A program made the position numbers and the translations under genes. Source: a virus. Taken from it: DNA of 32,976 nt. Shown here piece after piece: positions 4,551 to 32,976 of the stretch. Position 1 is the stretch's first letter. The number at the start of each line of letters is the position of its first letter. Location: the IMG/VR virus record IMGVR_UViG_3300035670_000828, positions 1-32,976 of that record. One strand, 5' to 3'. The notes under the pieces were generated by a model, which had not been told where the DNA came from, made no database searches, and was given only the letters and a program-made list of their open reading frames with translations.

Positions 4551-6041
4551 CTAGTAGGCAAGTTTATCGGTGTCCAAGACACCAAAGTTTGTGTTGTCAA
4601 GAATGAAAAACCCGGAATAGAAAGTTGCTGACGAAAGACCCAGCGTCACAGCCCACGTTCCCGGTGTGATTGTGTGAGCTACAGATTCAACAAAGCAGTC
4701 ACGCTGGATTGCAGAGCCACCACCTGTGACATTGAACTTCACTGTCACACGGTCACGGATCTTCCGTGAGAGAAGATCAGGGAACAACACAGCAGGGTCA
4801 CCTTGCGGATTGAACTTGATTTCCTCTGGACGCAACTCAGGGTTTGCGTACTGAGACGCAAGGAACAACGCAAGGTTGGTTGCCTGTGACTGTCCATATG
4901 AAGTGTCAGATCCCACCTGAGAAACAATGGGAACCTCGATGCTCAAAGTCTTTGGCCCGTACAGGGACACAGACTCAGCGTTGGACACAACCACAGTTGT
5001 TCCAGTGAGAGCCTCACCACCTGCAGCGGTGGTTACCTTCCGGTCAATTCTCACAATGTTGTAGATCAGGGAATCATCATAGACAATTGATGTGTCAACA
5101 AACTTTTTCCCTGCAACAACTGTGGTGTCATAGACAGACTGAACATTGATGCAACGGGGTTCTGTGATGATTGAGTTCCGGTCATCAAAGATGAGGGTTC
5201 CGTCTGCGTCAACATAGATCAGACCTGAGTCAGCCCGTGCAGCCTCCTGCAACATCTCGATAGGGGTCTTTGTTGCATCCTGCGGAGCAAGATAGGTGAT
5301 CCCTTCATCAATTTTTCTGAGGTTGTCAGGCCATCCCACCGCGTCAAGAATTGTTCTGATGCGAACACCGGGAAGGTCTGTTCCAGTCCCAATGATGGGA
5401 GTTGTTTCTGTTCCACCAGACACATTGATTGCACCGGTTGTTCCTTCACCCGTCACATCAATTGAGGAAGGTCCGAATCCTCCACCGTCTGACGGTTGAG
5501 AAATCGCAATGTCATAGGTGGTGGTTCCGCTCGATGTGATACTTGCTGACGATGGCAACCCACCAATCACATTGGACAGAGCCTTGAAAGCGTCTGAACA
5601 GGCAATGGTTGCGGTTGCGTCACCTGTCCCTGCGTCTGAATAGTTGAATGTCCATGAATCAATCCAGCCCCGAAAGATGGGATAGGTGACCCCGTTCCAT
5701 GTTGCACGGATCACCACCGGGATTGAAGGGACAACACCTGTGACACCAACAGTTGCGTTGTAATACGGAGACGCTGTGTTGGTTGGATCAAACGCACGGT
5801 CCCGGTTGTCCAGAACAATTGATGCTGTTCCAGTTCCGAACCGTTCCAACGCGCGTCTGCGTCCACGCGTGGTGGACACAGAACGAACAGCGGTGCTGAT
5901 GTCATAGAAGAATGAGCCATCACCCAGCGTTCCAGTGTCAAGACCGGGACCGACATCAAGAACCAACCGGTTTCCTGTGTTGCCACCAACCACAGAAGGT
6001 GCAAACAGCACTTCCAGAGTTGGCATATTGGGAAGGGTCAT
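4551..6041 (-). CDS. Minor tail protein (tail tip / baseplate hub)
   Basis: This 496-aa protein follows directly after the tape measure with an ATGA overlap, the usual place of the distal tail or hub proteins. Residues 50-130 carry a VSTTRGRRRALERFGTGTA, VLDNRDRAFDP and YPIFRGWIDSWTF series, a pattern seen in actinophage minor tail proteins that make up the tail tip. The middle is Gly/Thr-rich beta sequence, and a late GGGSAIQRDCFVESVAHTI section precedes a short C-terminal strand region. It likely bridges the tube end to the fibres. No enzymatic motif is evident. Confidence 0.85.
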   Translation of the reverse strand: MTLPNMPTLEVLFAPSVVGGNTGNRLVLDVGPGLDTGTLGDGSFFYDISTAVRSVSTTRGRRRALERFGTGTASIVLDNRDRAFDPTNTASPYYNATVGVTGVVPSIPVVIRATWNGVTYPIFRGWIDSWTFNYSDAGTGDATATIACSDAFKALSNVIGGLPSSASITSSGTTTYDIAISQPSDGGGFGPSSIDVTGEGTTGAINVSGGTETTPIIGTGTDLPGVRIRTILDAVGWPDNLRKIDEGITYLAPQDATKTPIEMLQEAARADSGLIYVDADGTLIFDDRNSIITEPRCINVQSVYDTTVVAGKKFVDTSIVYDDSLIYNIVRIDRKVTTAAGGEALTGTTVVVSNAESVSLYGPKTLSIEVPIVSQVGSDTSYGQSQATNLALFLASQYANPELRPEEIKFNPQGDPAVLFPDLLSRKIRDRVTVKFNVTGGGSAIQRDCFVESVAHTITPGTWAVTLGLSSATFYSGFFILDNTNFGVLDTDKLAY

Positions 6042-18423: not shown

Positions 18424-18984
18424 TCATTTCAAAAGATCAGAAATCCAATCATCAAGATTGGCGAACTCAACACCACAGCCACGGAACCTCCGTCCCGTAA
18501 CTGTTATGTACCGGCCTGCACCGTAAATCTCCACATCCCCTGTCCTGCGACCTTGCACAAGATCAGCGAAACCCCACACATGCAGACCAGATCCAGAAGG
18601 TGACACCTCCACATAGGTTGAAGGCATCTTGTCCAACAGATCACGCGTCCAAGACTCATGTCTTCCGCGACTGTCAAGGCAATGATCAATGTCAACGCAC
18701 ACGATGCGGTCAGAAGGTGACAGAACGAAACCGACACCAACACCAACAGACGATGAGGACGCAACTTCCCACGACACCCAAGAACCGGGGTCAGTAGAAC
18801 TTGCGTTCCCACCTGTCACACGCAACGGAACCTTGTCAGCAGACCAGCGAACCCAGCGAGGAATGTCACGCAGAGTCTGAGCCGGCAGAGAACGATGGAA
18901 CGCAACCCTGCAACGGGTGCTGCAGAATCGAGCATCACCACGCGCCAGAAGCGCAACGGAACCTGAGCAGCGGACACAGACCAT
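18424..18984 (-). CDS. Small zinc-ribbon PrimPol-like (AEP) protein
   Basis: This 186-aa protein has an N-terminal four-Cys ribbon (Cys3, Cys6, Cys21, Cys25) and then the three archaeo-eukaryotic primase motifs: VDID (residues 97-100), SGSGLHVWG (130-138, the s-x-H motif) and EIYGAGRYITVTG (152-164). This matches the bifunctional primase-polymerase N-terminal family. It lacks the helicase or ATPase part, which sits in the large replication protein at about 20-22 kb. It is the first gene after the presumed packaging end. A role in priming, or in end processing at packaging, is possible. Confidence 0.78.
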   Translation of the reverse strand: MVCVRCSGSVALLARGDARFCSTRCRVAFHRSLPAQTLRDIPRWVRWSADKVPLRVTGGNASSTDPGSWVSWEVASSSSVGVGVGFVLSPSDRIVCVDIDHCLDSRGRHESWTRDLLDKMPSTYVEVSPSGSGLHVWGFADLVQGRRTGDVEIYGAGRYITVTGRRFRGCGVEFANLDDWISDLLK

Positions 18985-20117: not shown

Positions 20118-22295
20118 TCAGAAGAGGTCTTCTGGTTCGCTAACCGCGCCAGAGTGGTTGGTTTGGTTGGGTGTTGAGTTGGTGGTTTGAACTGATCCTT
20201 CTACCGCGCCAGCACCGCCTTTTAGTAAAGGGGCGGCGCGGTTGGCGCGGTTAGAAGTTGGCAACTGTTCCGGGTGCGGTTGGCGCGGTTCGGCGCGGTT
20301 GGCGCGGTTAGGTTCAGGCTGTGGTTGTTGTGGGGTTTGTGGCTCAATTGTGAGGGTGTCCATGACTTCATATTTCTTCAGGAGTGTGAAGTTGTAGCCT
20401 CCTCCTTTGCCTGTTCTGAGGGTGCGTTCCACATAGCCACGCTCCATCATGTCTTCCAGTGCGTCAATCACTGAGCGTCTGGGAATGGGTTTGCACGCTT
20501 CTATGAGTCCGTTCTGTGTTTGTGTTCCCATTCCCAGCACCTGACTGATCTTCTGTGCAGCGTCTGATGGGATGGCTGCTTGAGGGTCTGCGATGGTGAC
20601 TAGGACTCCTACGGGGGTGTCTGTGATGGTGATTGCAGCGACTGTGGTTCCGTGTCGGTAGGTTCCGTGTCGGTCCTTGGCGACTGTGAGACGCAGTTTC
20701 CCTTCCTGACCTTTGGCTGGTGGGGTGGTTACGTCAACCCGGTAGGACGCTCCGTCAATCGCGGCCAACTTGCGTTGGGAGCCGATAGCGAACCTTTTTG
20801 ATGCTTCATTGGACTTGGGGACATGATCGAGTAGCAGAACTGTGGATCCTGCACGGGTGAGTCTGCGTGGCAGTTTGCGGAACCATGCTGCTATCTCATC
20901 GTCTGCGTTGGGGTTGATTCCGTCCATGGAGACTGCTTCTCCGGTGGAGTCAATGATTGTGAGTTCAATCCCTTTGGTGACAACCATGTTCTCTAGGTAG
21001 TGGCCTGCACGGTCGTTGTATGGGCTGACTGGGGATATGTAGGTGAAGAGTTCCAGCACCTGTTGTTGTGTGCATCCAAGTTGTGTCATGCGGTTGGTGA
21101 CTGAGCCGGGATGGTCTTCGAAGTCTAGGAACAGGACGCGTTGTCCGTTCTGGATGGTTTGTGCTGCAGCCAACATGGACACCCACGTTTTCCCTGATCC
21201 GCTTTCACCGTAGAGTGCGTTTATGCGTGCAGGGTAGAGAAGTGCTGCACCGTCCATTCTTGTGAGAATCGTTGGTGTGACCTGTTCATGGGTTCCCTGC
21301 AGGATTGCTGCAAGGTCTGTTGGTTCCCAACCGTGGTCCAGTTCCTCGATGTCTGCGGGTGTGGGTGCTGGGAGTGTGGTTGGCAGTGTTGCTTCCCATG
21401 CGTTGACCGCGGCCATGTCATGGTCACGGAGGGTTCTTGCAGCCTGTGAGCGGTCACCTGCGTGGTGTCGTTGTGCGTAATATCCGAACCGTGAGAATGG
21501 GCCTTCTGGGAGCCATGGGAGAGCGGAGGTGAAGACTCTCAGCATGTCTTGTCCGTTCCATCCCACTGTGGCTGATGTCCCTTCATCCTTGCCGGGACGG
21601 GTCCAGTGTTGTTCTCCTGTGCGGTCTGTGTGATCGAGTGTCCATCCGTCTGCTGTGAGTAGTTCAGCCCATGTGGTGCGTTGGTTGTATCGGGCTGCAA
21701 CGGAGTCTTCATCTGTGCTGCTGGTGTGACGGTATTCCGTTACGGGTTGGGGTTCAGGTTGTGTTGTGATGAGTTCAATGAGCCATTGTGGAGCGGGTGC
21801 TATGGGTGCGGGTTCACCTCCCACCCATGAATAGGGGGTTCCTGATTGATGCACTGAGGGTGGAGCGACTACCTGCCCACCTTCTCCGCGGATGTCTAGT
21901 CCCGGTCCCAGTTTGCGTCCTGCGTCGTTGCGGATCTCGATTCCTTCAGGGTGTTGGAAGTAGTAGTGAACTCCTCCTGATCCTGTGAGAACTGTTGCTG
22001 TGTCCGGTAGTGGTCCGTGTTGTTGTTGTAGCTCATGGAGTGTTTCGTCTCCGGTTTTGCCTTGGGACACGTCAACGTCAAGAACGAAGATCCCTGATTG
22101 CTTCCCGGTCGCTATGCCTATTCCGTGGTCTGCGTATTGTCCCAGCCACCATTGGTGAATGGTGTTGGTGTCTGTGGTTGCGATTGTCTGCCATGAGTGC
22201 ATGGGCGGTCTTTTGCCGTTGGGAATGATTGGAATCACTCTCCAACCGTTGTTCTGGTAGGTGTCTGTGTAATCGAACACATCATCCATTGTCAT
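20118..22295 (-). CDS. Replication protein: PrimPol domain plus RecA-like ATPase
   Basis: With the ATG at 22295 (ATGA overlap with the upstream stop) this is 725 aa. Residues 5-175 are a bifunctional primase-polymerase domain: FVLDVDV (catalytic acids near 73-75), SGGVHYYF (106-113) and DIRGEGGQVVAPP. Residues about 340-570 are a RepA/AAA_25-like ATPase with GESGSGKT (363-370), FLDFED, LTIIDSTGE as Walker B (near 445-451) and LLLDHVPKS. Residues 580-640 look like a winged helix (RRSVIDALEDMMERGYVERT). The last 85 residues are Pro/Gln/Asn-rich, where the DNA carries the repeat array. It probably initiates replication and primes synthesis, as no separate DNA polymerase gene is visible. Confidence 0.9.
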   Translation of the reverse strand: MTMDDVFDYTDTYQNNGWRVIPIIPNGKRPPMHSWQTIATTDTNTIHQWWLGQYADHGIGIATGKQSGIFVLDVDVSQGKTGDETLHELQQQHGPLPDTATVLTGSGGVHYYFQHPEGIEIRNDAGRKLGPGLDIRGEGGQVVAPPSVHQSGTPYSWVGGEPAPIAPAPQWLIELITTQPEPQPVTEYRHTSSTDEDSVAARYNQRTTWAELLTADGWTLDHTDRTGEQHWTRPGKDEGTSATVGWNGQDMLRVFTSALPWLPEGPFSRFGYYAQRHHAGDRSQAARTLRDHDMAAVNAWEATLPTTLPAPTPADIEELDHGWEPTDLAAILQGTHEQVTPTILTRMDGAALLYPARINALYGESGSGKTWVSMLAAAQTIQNGQRVLFLDFEDHPGSVTNRMTQLGCTQQQVLELFTYISPVSPYNDRAGHYLENMVVTKGIELTIIDSTGEAVSMDGINPNADDEIAAWFRKLPRRLTRAGSTVLLLDHVPKSNEASKRFAIGSQRKLAAIDGASYRVDVTTPPAKGQEGKLRLTVAKDRHGTYRHGTTVAAITITDTPVGVLVTIADPQAAIPSDAAQKISQVLGMGTQTQNGLIEACKPIPRRSVIDALEDMMERGYVERTLRTGKGGGYNFTLLKKYEVMDTLTIEPQTPQQPQPEPNRANRAEPRQPHPEQLPTSNRANRAAPLLKGGAGAVEGSVQTTNSTPNQTNHSGAVSEPEDLF
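20142..20309. repeat. Iteron-like GGCGCGGTT array, candidate replication origin
   Basis: On the plus strand, perfect ggcgcggtt copies lie at 20235-20243, 20244-20252, 20282-20290, 20292-20300 and 20301-20309. One ggtgcggtt variant is at 20273-20281. Inverted copies lie at 20142-20150 (perfect) and 20202-20210 (8 of 9). They sit inside the low-complexity 3' end of the replication gene, encoding NRANRA-type residues. Repeated initiator sites inside the initiator gene are known from phage lambda (O gene). Confidence 0.6.
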
Positions 22296-22504
22296 GTGGT
22301 CCCGTTCTCCTGCTGTGCCTGTTTGACTGCTTCTGTGATTTGAATCCAGCCTTGGATGTGTTGGATGAGTTGTTCTTTCATCCATTCCATTGTGAACACT
22401 GCAACGCTGAGGTCTTCGTCAAGTGTGTCTGGGTTGGGCCAGAACCGTTGGTTCTTCAGTGCCTGAATTGCGTCATCAATTGTTGGAACCTGCTCATCCA
22501 TCAT
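22292..22504 (-). CDS. 70-aa hypothetical protein before the replication gene
   Basis: This protein begins MMDEQVPTIDDAIQALKNQ and is helical, acidic and rich in Gln, with two Met/Trp-rich segments (VAVFTMEWMKEQLIQHIQGW). It is coupled on both sides: its start overlaps the previous stop (ATGA, or TGATG if the second Met is used) and its stop overlaps the PrimPol-ATPase start as ATGA. A partner of the replication protein is possible from position only. Family not recognised. Confidence 0.75.
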   Translation of the reverse strand: MMDEQVPTIDDAIQALKNQRFWPNPDTLDEDLSVAVFTMEWMKEQLIQHIQGWIQITEAVKQAQQENGTT

Positions 22505-22749: not shown

Positions 22750-22882
22750 TGTTGTTCTCCTTCAGTGCGTTGTTGAATGCTTCACGGATGATGTCTGCTT
22801 CACGTTTCTTGATCAGATACCACGGACGGGTCATCTTCTCTGAGAGTTCCCTGCTCAGTTGAATGGTCACTGTGTCGTTCAT
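22742..22882 (-). CDS. 46-aa small basic protein, possible ribbon-helix-helix
   Basis: The ATG at 22882 overlaps the PAPS-reductase-like stop as ATGA and the stop overlaps the next gene by 8 nt. The protein begins MNDTVTIQLSRELSEKMTRP, a beta strand followed by a helix, similar in pattern to ribbon-helix-helix DNA-binding proteins, and continues WYLIKKREADIIREAF. The RHH assignment is only by pattern. If correct, it would be a small early transcription regulator. Confidence 0.65.
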   Translation of the reverse strand: MNDTVTIQLSRELSEKMTRPWYLIKKREADIIREAFNNALKENNND

Positions 22883-23703
22883 GTCCAGCAATACCCAGAG
22901 TCACAGGAACCGTCTTCTGGGTCTCCAAAGTTGAGTTCATCCTGAGCCTCAACTATGTGTTCAATCATTGGTGCTGGTCTCGATGTCCACCAATAGCGGG
23001 GTTTCCCGAATTGGTCACGGTATTGGTTCATTTCCACTTCCAGTTGTGCAACAGCGTTGAACTGTTCAGGGTCATCTCTTCTAAGCCTCTCCCAATATGT
23101 GAGACGATTGAATGGGCAGAACCAACACGCAGACTTTGGGGGAACTTCCAATCCTGCTTCTGCAATCAGGTTCTCACAATCAATCCGTGACAACCCAAGA
23201 TCCAACAGCGGGAAGCATCTCCGTTCAAAAGGTTTGTCATGCTTAGTGTTGGCACGATGAAACTCATCTGTTGAGATACCCAATGCAAGTTGCGCTGGGT
23301 CATCAGGTGTCGCTCCGTTCTTCTTCAGCCAACGTGACACTGGAGCGGCCTTCCATTCCTTTGTGCAGGTTCGATTAGCCACTCCACCGGGACCGTCCCC
23401 AATCATCTTGACTGGAAGCGGTGTTGAACCGTTCCGTTTCACGTTCTCATTGTGATATTCCAGAATGGTCAGCGCGCGTTCTCCGTTGCGTTTGGTCCGA
23501 TAGATTTCATGGATCTTCACACCGTGTGCATCAGCCCACGGAATCGCAACTTCTCGCACATACCGGATTGTGTCTGGTGACTCTGAGTCATCACCAACAT
23601 TCACAATGACTGCTTCCTTGAAGTCAATCTGGTTCTGTGCAGCAAGAACAATCATTGCGGTTGATTGAACTCCACCACCGTATGAAATGATTTTCAATGT
23701 CAT
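22879..23703 (-). CDS. PAPS reductase-like / adenine nucleotide alpha-hydrolase protein
   Basis: This 274-aa protein has the PP-loop-type N-terminus SYGGGVQSTA (residues 7-16, the modified P-loop of the N-type ATP pyrophosphatase superfamily), VIVNVGDDSESPDT, and the cysteine set RTCTKEWK (Cys113), Cys163 and CWFC (Cys193, Cys196). It then has NRLTYWERLRRDDPEQF. Family members activate a substrate with ATP by adenylation; some, such as DndC, take part in DNA phosphorothioation, others in tRNA or sulfur metabolism. This phage subfamily has no settled function that I know. AAGGA lies 7 nt upstream. Confidence 0.8.
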   Translation of the reverse strand: MTLKIISYGGGVQSTAMIVLAAQNQIDFKEAVIVNVGDDSESPDTIRYVREVAIPWADAHGVKIHEIYRTKRNGERALTILEYHNENVKRNGSTPLPVKMIGDGPGGVANRTCTKEWKAAPVSRWLKKNGATPDDPAQLALGISTDEFHRANTKHDKPFERRCFPLLDLGLSRIDCENLIAEAGLEVPPKSACWFCPFNRLTYWERLRRDDPEQFNAVAQLEVEMNQYRDQFGKPRYWWTSRPAPMIEHIVEAQDELNFGDPEDGSCDSGYCWT

Positions 23704-23718
23704 GTCTGGTTCCTTCCT

Positions 23719-24228
23719 CTACCTGAGCCCAAGTTTTCTTGCGCATCCGGGCCATGCACCCCACCCGGATGATTGCAGGACACGTTCTGCAACCTCGATC
23801 TGTTGTTCCCGTGTCGCTTCCCACGGGTGCGGTGCGTACTGTTCGCCATGAAACGCGCGCCATGTTGACCATGACTGCTGGTGTGCGAACTGCAACCCTC
23901 CACCAAACCCGTTGCCTGTGTTGGTTGCCCAATCGCCACCGGTCTCGCATTGTGCGAGGTCATCCCATACGGAACTGTGTTGGGGTGTGGGGGTTGCTGT
24001 ATTGCGGTTTTGCTGCATTGCAGTTGTGGTTGTGGTGGTGACTGACTGCAGGAAAATCTCGAGATTTTGAACTGCCTTCCCTGCGTTGTCTGTCATGTCA
24101 TATCCGTTGAACTCGATTGGTTCATGTTGCGGTGCTGGTGCTTCTGGTTGCTGTTGTGTGCAGGACTGCAGGGTGATGATCATTGCTGCTGCACAGACTG
24201 TTGCTCTGATTGTTGAAGTTGCATCCAT
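23719..24228 (-). CDS. Rpf-like (resuscitation-promoting factor) lipoprotein
   Basis: With the ATG at 24228 this is 169 aa. Residues 1-23 are a lipoprotein signal peptide ending in the lipobox LQSC (Cys23). A 60-residue Pro/Gln/Thr-rich linker follows. Residues about 87-169 match the transglycosylase-like Rpf domain: VWDDLAQCETGGDWATNTGN with the likely catalytic Glu95, then GGGLQFAHQQSW and SSGWGAWPGCARKLG. Cys94 and Cys162 are placed for the family disulfide. It should be exported, lipid-anchored and able to cut peptidoglycan glycan strands. It lies among nucleic-acid genes, not in the lysis block. The start is after AGGA at 10 nt; an ATG 39 bases upstream is less likely. Confidence 0.85.
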   Translation of the reverse strand: MDATSTIRATVCAAAMIITLQSCTQQQPEAPAPQHEPIEFNGYDMTDNAGKAVQNLEIFLQSVTTTTTTAMQQNRNTATPTPQHSSVWDDLAQCETGGDWATNTGNGFGGGLQFAHQQSWSTWRAFHGEQYAPHPWEATREQQIEVAERVLQSSGWGAWPGCARKLGLR

Positions 24229-24338
24229 TGAAGTTTGTTCCTGTTCTTCCGTGTGCAGGTGAGACATGACACAGCCTGCAACGCGATTGGTGAAGGGTAG
24301 GTGTCATCGCACTTGGGACACACCCATTGCTGTTTCAT
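24180..24338 (-). CDS. 52-aa zinc-ribbon peptide
   Basis: The ATG at 24338 overlaps the preceding stop (ATGA) and the frame runs to a TGA inside the Rpf signal-peptide region, a 49-nt overlap in another frame. The protein starts MKQQWVCPKCDDTYPSPIAL and continues QAVSCLTCTRKNRNKL: two CxxC pairs about 15 residues apart, a clear zinc ribbon. The C-terminus is Gln-rich. It may be a small transcription or DNA-binding factor. Evidence is the motif plus the coupling. Confidence 0.7.
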   Translation of the reverse strand: MKQQWVCPKCDDTYPSPIALQAVSCLTCTRKNRNKLQWMQLQQSEQQSVQQQ

Positions 24339-24619
24339 TGCTCATGGTCCCTGAGTGTCTGGTTCCATTCCCCTATGGCTGACGCTGCTTCTATCATGCG
24401 GTGTTGGGTGAGTGTCACTGTGACCTGTCCGGTTGAGTGTGTGCGTGGTGCAGCGTTCAGGATCTCGATTGTTTCAGCCAATCGTTTTCCAGCCTTGATG
24501 AGTGCGTTGTTGGCGCGCGCGCATTGGATGAGTTCGCTGGTGGGCCATCCTCCGTGTTGTTTCTCCCAATCGTCCAGCGCGGCGAGTGCTGCAGCGTATG
24601 GATCCCAGCCCGGTTTCAT
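24335..24619 (-). CDS. 94-aa hypothetical protein downstream of the DNA methyltransferase
   Basis: The protein starts MKPGWDPYAAALAALDDWEKQ; its ATG at 24619 overlaps the methyltransferase stop as ATGA, and its own stop overlaps the zinc-ribbon peptide. It is helical: an N-terminal aromatic stretch, ELIQCARANNALIKAGKRLAETIEIL, and a C-terminal helix with RMIEAASAIGEWNQTLRDHE. No catalytic motif is visible. It may be a partner of the methyltransferase, inferred only from coupling. Confidence 0.75.
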   Translation of the reverse strand: MKPGWDPYAAALAALDDWEKQHGGWPTSELIQCARANNALIKAGKRLAETIEILNAAPRTHSTGQVTVTLTQHRMIEAASAIGEWNQTLRDHEQ

Positions 24620-25254
24620 ATCGAGTCTCCAAACATCAGCACTTCCTGTCCCATACGTTCCGCTGCTGCATAGCAATACCGTTCCTCTATCTCAACACCT
24701 ATGGCTTTGCGTCCAAGGTTCTTGGCTGCACGCAATGTGGTACCGGACCCCATGAATGGGTCCAAGATCACACCCTGTGGGATGGTCTCAATGATGGTCA
24801 TCAGCATTGAGATTGGTTTCTCTGTTGGATGCAATCGAGATCCACCGTTTGCGTTGACCACTCCACCGTGCAGAACACGCAACATGTGGTTTCTGCCCGG
24901 TGTGTCTGACCATGCGAGTTCATAGGGTGTGCCAATCATCTTGTCTGCTGCTTCTGTCAGACGCTTATCCCAACAGAACCATTGTCCACCGGGACTGAGT
25001 AGGTGTGGGAACTCATGTGCTCCGAACACAACACGTTTCACCGCTGGGATGGTGAGTGCGAACTGTGCAGCATCAAATGTGGTGTCACCGTGGATGGGTG
25101 CATATTCAGTTGCACCCAAGTTGGTTGGTCCACCTTCATATGCAATTCCATAGGGTGGGTCTGTTAGCACATGATCCCATTGCAGCTCATCAATGATCAT
25201 CATTGAATCTGCATGGAAGATGGTTACAAAGTCGTCTTCATAATACGGTTTCAT
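24616..25254 (-). CDS. Site-specific DNA methyltransferase, N6-adenine or N4-cytosine
   Basis: With the ATG at 25254 (ATGA overlap with the previous stop) this is 212 aa. The catalytic motif TDPPYGIAYEGG (DPPY at residues 32-35) comes before the SAM-binding DPFMGSGTT near residue 172, the order of beta-class amino-methyltransferases. HPTEKPISML and GRKAIGVEIEERYC also fit the family. It probably modifies phage DNA to evade host restriction. No cognate nuclease is next to it. Confidence 0.9.
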   Translation of the reverse strand: MKPYYEDDFVTIFHADSMMIIDELQWDHVLTDPPYGIAYEGGPTNLGATEYAPIHGDTTFDAAQFALTIPAVKRVVFGAHEFPHLLSPGGQWFCWDKRLTEAADKMIGTPYELAWSDTPGRNHMLRVLHGGVVNANGGSRLHPTEKPISMLMTIIETIPQGVILDPFMGSGTTLRAAKNLGRKAIGVEIEERYCYAAAERMGQEVLMFGDSI

Positions 25255-25433
25255 CCAACTGTCCTGTCCATCACTCTGAGTTGCGTCCATGCACGGATCC
25301 CGTTTGCAATCTGCACAGCGTCCTGATGGTGTGCTTCATATCTGATTGTGATCCGGTCTGCACCGTCTGCAACAGCAATCCCATACTGCTGTGCGCGTGG
25401 TTCGTAATAGATAACTAGTTCCGGTGAACTCAC
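25251..25433 (-). CDS. 60-aa hypothetical protein, GTG start
   Basis: The GTG at 25433 is preferred because AAAGGAGG lies 4-5 nt upstream. Longer in-frame starts would run through the 25459-25496 hairpin. The protein starts VSSPELVIYYEPRAQQYGIA and continues VADGADRITIRYEAHHQDAVQIANGIRAW, with two short beta regions and a helix, and ends VMDRTVG. The stop overlaps the methyltransferase start as ATGA. Function unknown. Confidence 0.65.
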   Translation of the reverse strand: MSSPELVIYYEPRAQQYGIAVADGADRITIRYEAHHQDAVQIANGIRAWTQLRVMDRTVG

Positions 25434-27583: not shown

Positions 27584-27814
27584 ATGTGGCCTTGGCTGTT
27601 GTTGTGTTGCGAACTGATAGGTGTTGCAGGTCAATATCTGATTGGCAGGAGGATGTGGGTTGGGTTCCTCATCGTCCTGCTGCACTCATGGCCTTGGGCG
27701 GTTTACTCGATTGTCACCCGTCAATGGGGGTTCCTCGCAATGTTCGGTCTGTGGCAGATAGTCAACGGGGTTGGTTGTGTCCGCTGGTTCAGGAACCGTA
27801 CCGAACCCCTGTGA
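27584..27814 (+). CDS. Small membrane protein, the only plausible plus-strand gene
   Basis: A 76-aa reading (from the ATG at 27584) fills the 234-bp gap between the nuclease and the C5 methyltransferase and overlaps the 3' end of the latter by 26 nt. It has two membrane helices around GQYLIGRRMWVGFLIVLL and WPWAVYSIVTRQWGFLAMFG, a pattern (G-Q-Y-L-I-G-R ... V-Y-S-x-x-T-R-Q-W-G-F) seen in small actinophage membrane proteins. There is no Shine-Dalgarno on the plus strand and the true start is uncertain. A start at an internal TTG near CELIGVAG is possible. Confidence 0.6.
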   Translation: MWPWLLLCCELIGVAGQYLIGRRMWVGFLIVLLHSWPWAVYSIVTRQWGFLAMFGLWQIVNGVGCVRWFRNRTEPL

Positions 27815-28880
27815 CAGTGGTCAGGACATGGGCTGCAAGGAGCGGGGGGACAGCGTTCCCGATTTGCTCAAATTGCTTTGTCACAGACCCCTGCACTGGA
27901 TAGTCCACCGGGAATGACTGCAGCACCAACGCGTCCTGTGGGGTGATCCTCACAGACCCTTCACGTTCCTGACGTGGCCTTGTGAGATCCACACCGGGAC
28001 CGGACACAATCATTGGACGAAATGACCCAACAATGGTGGTTGAAGGACGAACCATCCACCATGCACCTGACTGACCCGTGATTGATGGTGAAGGACTAGT
28101 TGCAGGAACCCTCTGTGCATCGTCGCGTGTCCCACCCCTCTTCCACGCGCGGCCTGTGTTCATCTCCCACTCTCCGCGTTCAATTTCAGAACGCAACCCT
28201 GCACGCACCCCAGAGCCACCAGACGGGAACGGATCTGGCGCACCATGAACCCCAGCGCACAAAGTCCAAGAGGGTTTAGGTCTACCCCATCCCAACGCTT
28301 CAGCCATCGTCACCCACGGTTGCAGTTCATCTCCGAACAGAGACGGTTCAGGATTCTTGTCATGTGTTGGTGGAGGTGCAGCAACCTGTGTGGTTCTCGA
28401 TGCAATAAGAAACGCACGTTTGCGGGTTTGGGGAACCCCATAGTCCGCTGCATTCAACACACCAACCCATGTTGAGAACCCCCAACTCTCCAACACCTCA
28501 GAGTAGTCATGCCAGATTGGGAGAACAGGGGGAACCTGTTCACACACCACCCACTCAGGGTTCAGAGCCTCAGTCCAACGCAACACCTCAGTGACCAACT
28601 GTCCACGTTCACCCTCTATCCCTGCACGCTTCCCAGCCATTGAGAAATCCTGACAGGGTGGGGACGCAATCAACCCAACAGACCTCCCAGCGAACTGCTC
28701 CACAGGGAACGCTGCAATATCAGCCTGAATGGTTCGATGACCTGCAGCAGCGCGTGTTGCAGACGCGGCCTTGTCCCACTCAATCCCAATCTCCAATGCG
28801 TGCAAGTCAGGGTCCAACATCCGCAACCCTTCAGACCAGCCACCGGGACCAGCGAACAGATCAACGATGCAGTCAACCAT
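27789..28880 (-). CDS. C5-cytosine DNA methyltransferase
   Basis: With the ATG at 28880 (AAGGA 6 nt upstream, 8-nt overlap with the WhiB gene) this is 363 aa. Conserved motifs are in order: DLFAGPGGWSEGL (motif I, residues 7-19), SPPCQDFS with the catalytic Cys76 (motif IV), CEQVPP (motif VI, E-x-V), YGVPQTRKRAFLIA (motif VIII) and QIGNAVPPLLAAHV (motif X) near the end. The enzyme flips out and methylates cytosine. The variable target-recognition part lies in residues about 170-330. It is likely used for anti-restriction. The longer upstream frame is a shadow of WhiB. Confidence 0.92.
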   Translation of the reverse strand: MVDCIVDLFAGPGGWSEGLRMLDPDLHALEIGIEWDKAASATRAAAGHRTIQADIAAFPVEQFAGRSVGLIASPPCQDFSMAGKRAGIEGERGQLVTEVLRWTEALNPEWVVCEQVPPVLPIWHDYSEVLESWGFSTWVGVLNAADYGVPQTRKRAFLIASRTTQVAAPPPTHDKNPEPSLFGDELQPWVTMAEALGWGRPKPSWTLCAGVHGAPDPFPSGGSGVRAGLRSEIERGEWEMNTGRAWKRGGTRDDAQRVPATSPSPSITGQSGAWWMVRPSTTIVGSFRPMIVSGPGVDLTRPRQEREGSVRITPQDALVLQSFPVDYPVQGSVTKQFEQIGNAVPPLLAAHVLTTVTGVRYGS

Positions 28881-29235
28881 TGCGTTTCCTTGCTCGATAC
28901 TCAGCAATGTAATTGGTCTGAGATGCGCGACAGTCATCACATCTGCACCCTTGTGTGTAACCGGAGCGGGTGCCACACACCACAGGTCCACGCTGCTTTG
29001 GTGGGATAACCATCTTCCTTCTCTGGGTGTAACCCACCCCACCCCAAACCCCGTAGCGTTCATCATTCTGCAACGCAAAGTCCAGACACTCCCATGCCAC
29101 CGGACATTGTTCACATATCTGACGGGCCTTCTGAGCAGCCTTCCAATCACCCTTGTGAGCGAAGAACAAATGTCCAAGTCCCTTGCACAATGCACGGTCT
29201 GTCCAATGATCTGACACTTCCTGTTGTGTGTTCAA
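28873..29235 (-). CDS. WhiB-family regulator with extra C-terminal cysteine module
   Basis: This 120-aa protein has the WhiB iron-sulfur ligands Cys17, Cys41, Cys44 and Cys50 (C-x23-CxxC-x5-C), the GVWGG turn (62-66) and a basic YTQRRK element. A second module holds Cys87, Cys97, Cys99 and Cys102 (CGTRSGYTQGCRCDDC), a zinc-finger-like motif also seen in other actinophage proteins, and a basic C-terminus. WhiB proteins bind sigma factor region 4 and are nearly confined to Actinobacteria and their phages. The TTG start at 29235 makes a TTGA overlap with the previous stop. It may redirect host transcription. Confidence 0.88.
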   Translation of the reverse strand: MNTQQEVSDHWTDRALCKGLGHLFFAHKGDWKAAQKARQICEQCPVAWECLDFALQNDERYGVWGGVGYTQRRKMVIPPKQRGPVVCGTRSGYTQGCRCDDCRASQTNYIAEYRARKRNG

Positions 29236-32386: not shown

Positions 32387-32849
32387 AGTTCCACCACACA
32401 GGCCACACAACCCCACGCAACCTTCACTGTGTCGTAGACAAAGCCAACTGTGGTCACCTTGTTTGCAACTGTTGTTGTTGGAAGAGCAACACCAGATGCA
32501 ACAAATGATGCACCCCATGTGATGGCGCGCGCTGTTCCATCGTCCTTGATGCGGATCAGCAGTTTGTCAAAGTTGGCAGGTGTGCCTGAAAGGTTGGTTG
32601 TCATCGAAGTGATGGCAGTTGCTAGTGCGGTGATTGTGACTGCTTCACAGTTGTCTGTGTTGATTGTTGGTGTTGCTGAACTTGTGATTGTGGTGACTGC
32701 GAGATTGCGCGCACCTGATGCACCTTGAGCACCCTGAGCACCAGTAGCACCCTGAGCACCAGTAGCACCCTGAGCACCAGTAGCACCCTGAGCACCAGTG
32801 TCCCCTTGGGCTCCTTGGGCTCCAGTGGCACCCTGAGGTCCAGTGGCAC
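32383..32849 (-). CDS. Collagen-like tail fibre protein, C-terminal part (joins the 781-1 part)
   Basis: This part holds the last 16 Gly-X-Y triplets and the C-terminal domain of the fibre begun at 781. After trimming the 127-base overlap the full protein has 34 Gly-X-Y triplets (residues about 207-308) and a 107-residue C-terminal domain: [58 protein letters not shown] and [21 protein letters not shown]. The latter is a widespread actinophage fibre ending, probably the trimerising or receptor-facing tip. The 32383 stop overlaps the next gene as GTGA. Confidence 0.9.
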
Positions 32850-32976
32850 CCTGAGGTCCAATGGCACCCTGAGGTCCAGTGGCTCCTTGGGCTCCAGTGT
32901 CCCCTTGGGCTCCTTGGGCTCCAGTGGCACCCTGAGGTCCAATGGCACCCTGAGGTCCAGTGGCTCCTTGGGCTCC
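32850..32976. repeat. Direct terminal repeat, right copy
   Basis: Identical to bases 1-127. It lies in the collagen-like repeat region (ggcaccctgaggtcc and ggctccttgggctcc units), which itself is repetitive. Counting this copy only once keeps the fibre gene in frame. Confidence 0.9.

Follow-up and report, generated by a model that had tools for sequence, protein, structure and literature searches.

Why should the 3′ coding tail of a phage replication gene carry a dense series of short, identical DNA sites? We addressed this question in a viral record of 32,976 bases, referred to here as the window, in which a gene on the minus strand (20118–22385) encodes a protein of 755 residues composed of a PrimPol domain, a RecA/KaiC-like ATPase domain, a winged helix, and a low-complexity tail. 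The whole array of sites falls within the last 200 bases of this gene. The first-pass annotation of the sequence had described five perfect copies and one near-perfect copy in one orientation and two inverted copies, all in 168 bp, and had proposed that they form a replication origin inside the initiator gene, recognized by the winged helix of the same protein. Our recount agrees with these numbers. On the plus strand, GGCGCGGTT is perfect at 20235, 20244, 20282, 20292, and 20301 and has one mismatch at 20273, whereas, of the inverted copies, that at 20142 is perfect and that at 20202 has a single mismatch; the array thus holds six exact copies of AACCGCGCC/GGCGCGGTT and two one-mismatch copies, in more than one reading frame. 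Overlooked in that list was a ninth site, an inverted variant (AACTGTTCC) at 20263–20271, which we count as a member of the array because every relative carries some form of it. Allowing up to one mismatch, the whole window contains 11 matches against 4.3 expected, 8 of the 11 are inside the 168 bp, and no second cluster of these sites was found elsewhere in the window. That the array is real we regard as virtually certain.

Read in the direction of the gene, the array begins with three copies of AACCGCGCC on the minus strand, namely site 1 (20301–20309), site 2 (20292–20300), and site 3 (20282–20290), the last in a different reading frame, and continues with a weak site, AACCGCACC (20273–20281, minus strand), and the inverted variant just mentioned, which is site 4 (plus strand; found in all relatives, as AACTGCTCC in two). 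Sites 5 (20244–20252) and 6 (20235–20243) are again AACCGCGCC on the minus strand and are followed, on the plus strand, by the inverted one-mismatch site 7 (20202–20210) and an inverted AACCGCGCC that is site 9 in the alignment numbering (20142–20150). Successive sites are separated by steps of 9, 10, 9, 10, 19, and 9 bp. The earlier suggestion that they lie on one helix face holds approximately: the steps are near one turn, but their mean of ~9.4 bp is short of 10.5 bp per turn, at which each successive site is rotated by roughly 35–40 degrees.

Repeats in coding sequence may exist for the sake of the protein, and the alternative to be weighed here is an NRA-type repeat in a disordered tail, without DNA function, for which the low complexity of the tail and the 9-bp step, equal to three codons, would speak. 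The frame is open through the array in the window and in all six relatives that reach it, and every alignment gap in the coding part has a length divisible by three, which bears out the placement of the array inside the low-complexity 3′ tail of the PrimPol–ATPase gene. However, the copies are not confined to one frame or one orientation, some of the steps are of 10 bp, and identical site bases are read as NRA, as part of EPRQ, and, inverted, as GAV. Shuffling synonymous codons across the gene with the protein unchanged does not reproduce the exact copies, yielding at most 3 in 20,000 trials where 6 are observed. Amino acids also change among the relatives (NRA to NCS, PRQ to LFQ) while the DNA pattern stays. 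We therefore rejected the protein-repeat reading, on the grounds of multiple frames and orientations, the shuffles, and the changed residues under a kept DNA pattern, and find it barely credible. The sites are also better kept than their surroundings. Between the window and L003, a relative whose protein is 68% identical, the sites differ at 5 of 81 bases (6%) and the array spacers at 25 of 87 (Fisher p = 1e-4, sites vs spacers), whereas the gene body differs by 33% overall and by 58% at four-fold sites. The open frame, the shuffles, and the better-kept sites together indicate a stretch that is both protein-coding and constrained as DNA, and we hold with high confidence that the array is selected as DNA.

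Comparison among the relatives further shows that the sites change type in concert. The sites are mainly AACCGCGCC in the window, L001, L002, and L003; sites 1 and 5 are AACTGTTCC in L005 and L007 and AACTGTTAC in L004, and in the latter three genomes site 3 and the inverted sites 7 and 9 have changed to match, so that the switch covers both orientations. Site 6 remains AACCGCGCC in L004, L005, and L007, as does site 2 in two of these, and the AACTGTTCC type is seen at inverted site 4 in every genome aligned. Common to the site types is the core AAC-G---C. Homogenization via template switching is a possible mutational route, and it says nothing against function.

At the center of the array lies a covarying hairpin (20198–20257, minus strand), in which site 5, the left arm of the outer stem, pairs with inverted site 7, the right arm, around an invariant CCCCTTTA..AAAAGG center. 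Folded as DNA, it has a z-score of −6.8 in the window, and four relatives give values from −6.6 to −8.1. In an alignment of seven sequences, 90% of cells pair and six pairs are changed on both sides; the covariation score of 0.212 compares with 0.098 for shuffled alignments (reached in 0 of 500) and with a maximum of 0.099 when the partners are slid, and the count of double-change pairs alone is not above shuffles (154 of 500). Given that seven sequences, all related, are a small set and that the structure was written after the alignment was seen, we take the result as strong but not independent proof, and it argues that the hairpin is maintained by compensatory changes. Part of the coordinated switching, that of sites 5 and 7, could follow from pairing in the hairpin, but the switch extends to sites 1, 3, and 9, which are not in it. 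This last point also bears on a reading of the strong, covarying hairpin as an RNA structure or a transcription terminator that ends the replication transcript. We rejected the terminator given the sites that change type beyond the hairpin, the lack of a U-tract after the hairpin on the gene strand, and the position of the hairpin within coding sequence, and we consider any such RNA-level role very improbable.

The protein encoded by the gene combines three domains with its low-complexity tail. The PrimPol domain (PF09250, residues 43–201, 21783–22259, minus strand; E = 2e-49) belongs to a profile that also matches pRN1 ORF904 among PDB sequences. The ATPase domain (residues 387–534, 20784–21227, minus strand) is assigned to AAA_25/KaiC by domain profile, and a search of PDB sequences matched RecA and KaiC, with RSF1010 RepA not among the matches. 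The winged helix (residues 607–671, 20373–20567, minus strand), our proposed reader of the sites, immediately precedes the array; it is predicted by AlphaFold with a pLDDT of ~85 from the 86-residue C-terminal domain alone, the full-length prediction being unusable (pLDDT 36), and Foldseek matches it to winged-helix regulators (prob 1.00, E ~1e-3). A winged-helix profile gave no significant match against PDB sequences. Of the pRN1-type set of PrimPol, SF3 helicase, and C-terminal winged helix, the protein has the first and the last, with a RecA/KaiC-like motor in place of the second. Its final residues are EPEDLF (20118–20135, minus strand), and its relatives finish in PFNPF; this short aromatic tip is perhaps, speculatively, a clamp- or SSB-type contact. 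Elsewhere in the window, a second, short standalone PrimPol-like gene (18424–18984, minus strand; 186 residues; PHROG 8643, E = 2e-55) lies between an HNH gene and terL and is kept in L001 and L007, and the replication half of the genome also contains two DNA methyltransferase genes (22879–25290 and 27789–29195, minus strand), a PAPS-reductase-like gene, and a transglycosylase-like gene.

We posit that the array is probably the replication origin of this phage, housed at the 3′ end of the initiator gene, within the coding tail. The sequence supports this earlier proposal in that the array is retained in six of six relatives reaching the gene end, with sites in L003 far better kept than the gene body; the pattern that the first-pass annotation had named as telling against it, a kept protein with a missing array, was not seen. 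Two features of iteron origins are found here, a repeat array beyond chance and a tight linkage to the initiator gene that is kept in relatives. The binding, opening, priming, and origin activity that we infer could proceed as follows. The PrimPol–ATPase–winged-helix protein, probably via its winged helix, would bind the 9-bp sites (core AAC-G---C) phased within the gene that encodes it, and assemblies facing the central hairpin would be loaded from either flank by sites of the two orientations. The RecA/KaiC-like ATPase would then open the duplex between sites of opposite orientation. Priming of the strands exposed in this way would be started by the PrimPol domain, perhaps at the hairpin, by analogy with RepB′ and the ssi hairpins of RSF1010. 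That the winged helix of the same protein binds the sites is plausible but unproven, and we lean modestly toward it. Counting against it, the winged helices of L003 and L005 are almost identical and their site types differ, which implies that the winged helix reads at most the invariant AAC-G---C core or that a second protein is involved. The array has a GC content of 50–70% with no clear AT-rich melting zone inside, and the adjoining 20320–20409 is at ~45–47% GC. DnaA boxes, which are common but not obligatory at iteron origins, were not found in the window, and initiation there would consequently not involve DnaA in its customary role. The GC skew changes sign near 19 kb but tracks coding-strand composition, and it yields no clear indication of an origin.

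Related loci carry arrays with the same architecture and different components. The PrimPols of L008 and L113 are 51–55% identical to that of the window; the helicase domain of L008 is DUF3987, and the L113 protein matches that of L008 at 64% identity along almost its full length. The 3′ tail of their gene contains 12 copies of a different 9-bp site, with a CGTGTCG-type motif and mostly 9-bp steps, arranged in L008 as nine direct copies, a G-rich/C-rich hairpin, and three inverted copies; the L113 sequence stops before the inverted part. Within each array, in the PrimPol–DUF3987 coding tail, is a perfect DnaA box, TTATCCACA (L008 7535–7543; L113 6556–6564), which occupies the equivalent array position in both and is the sole one per locus. 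Between these loci and the window, then, helicase, tail, and site type differ jointly while the architecture is constant.

To place these arrays in a wider set, we took 26 PrimPol or helicase loci and located in each the densest cluster of a 7-mer within 350 bases, using composition-matched simulations. Counted from the 3′ end of the PrimPol/helicase gene, all clusters of at least five copies have positions from −280 to +330, the one exception being a collagen-like repeat in the window. They occur in the window family, L008/L113, Karkharias, Leaf, Javan191, P8625, and JWX, and the site sequences differ among all of these groups. The iteron-like arrays at or past the PrimPol gene 3′ end are located in the next gene in Karkharias (L118 6072–6314), in intergenic sequence in Leaf (L120 4804–5119), right after the stop codon in P8625 (eight copies, L130 3983–4092), and at 6008–6344 of L135 in JWX; the Javan191 gene is a DUF3987 helicase without a Pfam PrimPol match. 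These four phages with listed coordinates are cultured, and their arrays are unmarked in the annotations seen. Counting against the origin reading, the 7-mer detector found no array at more than half of the 26 loci, and the same detector found none at the standalone PrimPols Neville, Wanda, McProf, AL3, and GD17-1. The loci were picked around the gene and the five-copy threshold was fixed after looking, and we describe the placement of arrays at the gene 3′ end as a strong tendency, not a law. The collagen-like repeat (GATGPQGA-type, 18-nt period, 32626–32976, minus strand), at the end of the record, is the strongest repeat cluster in the window and is unrelated to the array. Scanning IMG/VR for the paired-site pattern returned 94 stretches, in which the dense two-orientation arrays are already-known relatives and the remaining clusters run in a single direction and mostly have spacings that are multiples of 3, like coding repeats; the pattern scan of genome contigs gave a single weak match, and blastn of the array region against phages no relevant match.

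The genomic context of the arrays bears on two further functions. Terminase is encoded ~2 kb downstream in the window lineage, which counts against an origin, and the array could instead be a packaging site (cos or pac) at which terminase recognizes or cuts the genome using the sites and hairpin. The HNH gene and terL are 0.7–3.4 kb downstream of the array in a gene order shared with L001 and L007, and terL of P8625 is ~3 kb from its array if that genome is circular. However, equivalent arrays are distant from terminase in Javan191 (~10 kb) and Leaf (>30 kb), site types differ between the window and L007 although their terL is 82% identical, and the L008/L113 arrays include a DnaA box; packaging is in our judgment decidedly unlikely. 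Operators and centromeres, too, are typically built from short phased sites in the two orientations, and mycobacteriophages such as Miko have a direct-repeat parS just after repA (PMC7157519). A repressor or ParB-like protein acting at an operator or parS-like partition site might then silence or segregate the genome, but ParA/ParB were not found among the ORFs scanned (a subset of those in the window), the sites form one cluster at a gene end and not at a promoter, and arrays are associated with the PrimPol/helicase gene across unrelated phages. We consider this reading unlikely.

An origin within or beside the gene of its initiator, which we favor, has several precedents. RepAM of pMEA300 reportedly binds inverted repeats located near the 3′ end of the gene that encodes it. 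In SaPIs the origin comes immediately downstream of rep, and SaPI rep–ori and SCCmec Cch2 resemble the window in having an initiator helicase with a C-terminal DNA-binding domain and short iterons at the gene end (PMC7581432), but the iterons follow the gene instead of occupying its coding tail, priming is left to a separate primase, and the helicase is of another family. ORF904 of pRN1 is likewise a PrimPol–helicase–winged-helix protein with a stem-loop after its gene, and the study that describes it (PMC4234260) suggests that PrimPol phages, BIP-1 among them, also have a stem-loop origin; unlike the window, pRN1 has an SF3 helicase, no iterons, and a stem-loop outside coding sequence. As cited in PMC7157519, the lambda origin is inside the O gene, and its origin sites are thus within the gene of the initiator; O, however, is neither a primase nor a helicase and has no sequence relation to the window protein. 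For RSF1010, PMC4234260 describes an iteron binder, a helicase, and a primase (RepC, RepA, and RepB′) working with iterons and priming hairpins, but these are three proteins compared with one in the window, and the likeness is by function, with homology not established. Finally, oriV of the IncU plasmid RA3 includes and needs the 3′ end of repB (PMC9455977), so that the 3′ end of an initiator gene is again involved, with the difference that a single 25-bp element in the gene is combined with downstream repeats and there is no comparable coding-tail array.

Similar logic is therefore already known in SaPI, pRN1, RA3, and lambda. New here are iterons and a hairpin wholly in the coding tail of a PrimPol–RecA-like initiator, the concerted switch, and the joint difference in helicase and site type; a description of such an arrangement in PrimPol–helicase phages was not found in the literature searched, which omitted most subscription journals and by which the origins of these phages are largely unmapped. 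We tentatively raise the possibility, on which we would not yet rely, that the PrimPol–helicase gene of this environmental tailed-phage lineage is a portable module with its whole origin in the coding tail (iterons, hairpin, and, in one branch, a DnaA box), exchanged as one block with the helicase domain and tail. If so, initiator and origin specificity would be inseparable by recombination, and one polypeptide would do three jobs that are split among RepA, RepB′, and RepC in RSF1010. As a rule, we suggest checking the 3′ end of PrimPol–helicase genes for an array with 9–11 bp spacing, and Karkharias, Leaf, JWX, and P8625 offer testable sites in cultured phages. The window itself offers a clear case in which a single segment of DNA is under two constraints, as protein and as putative binding sites, with the site type switching in concert.
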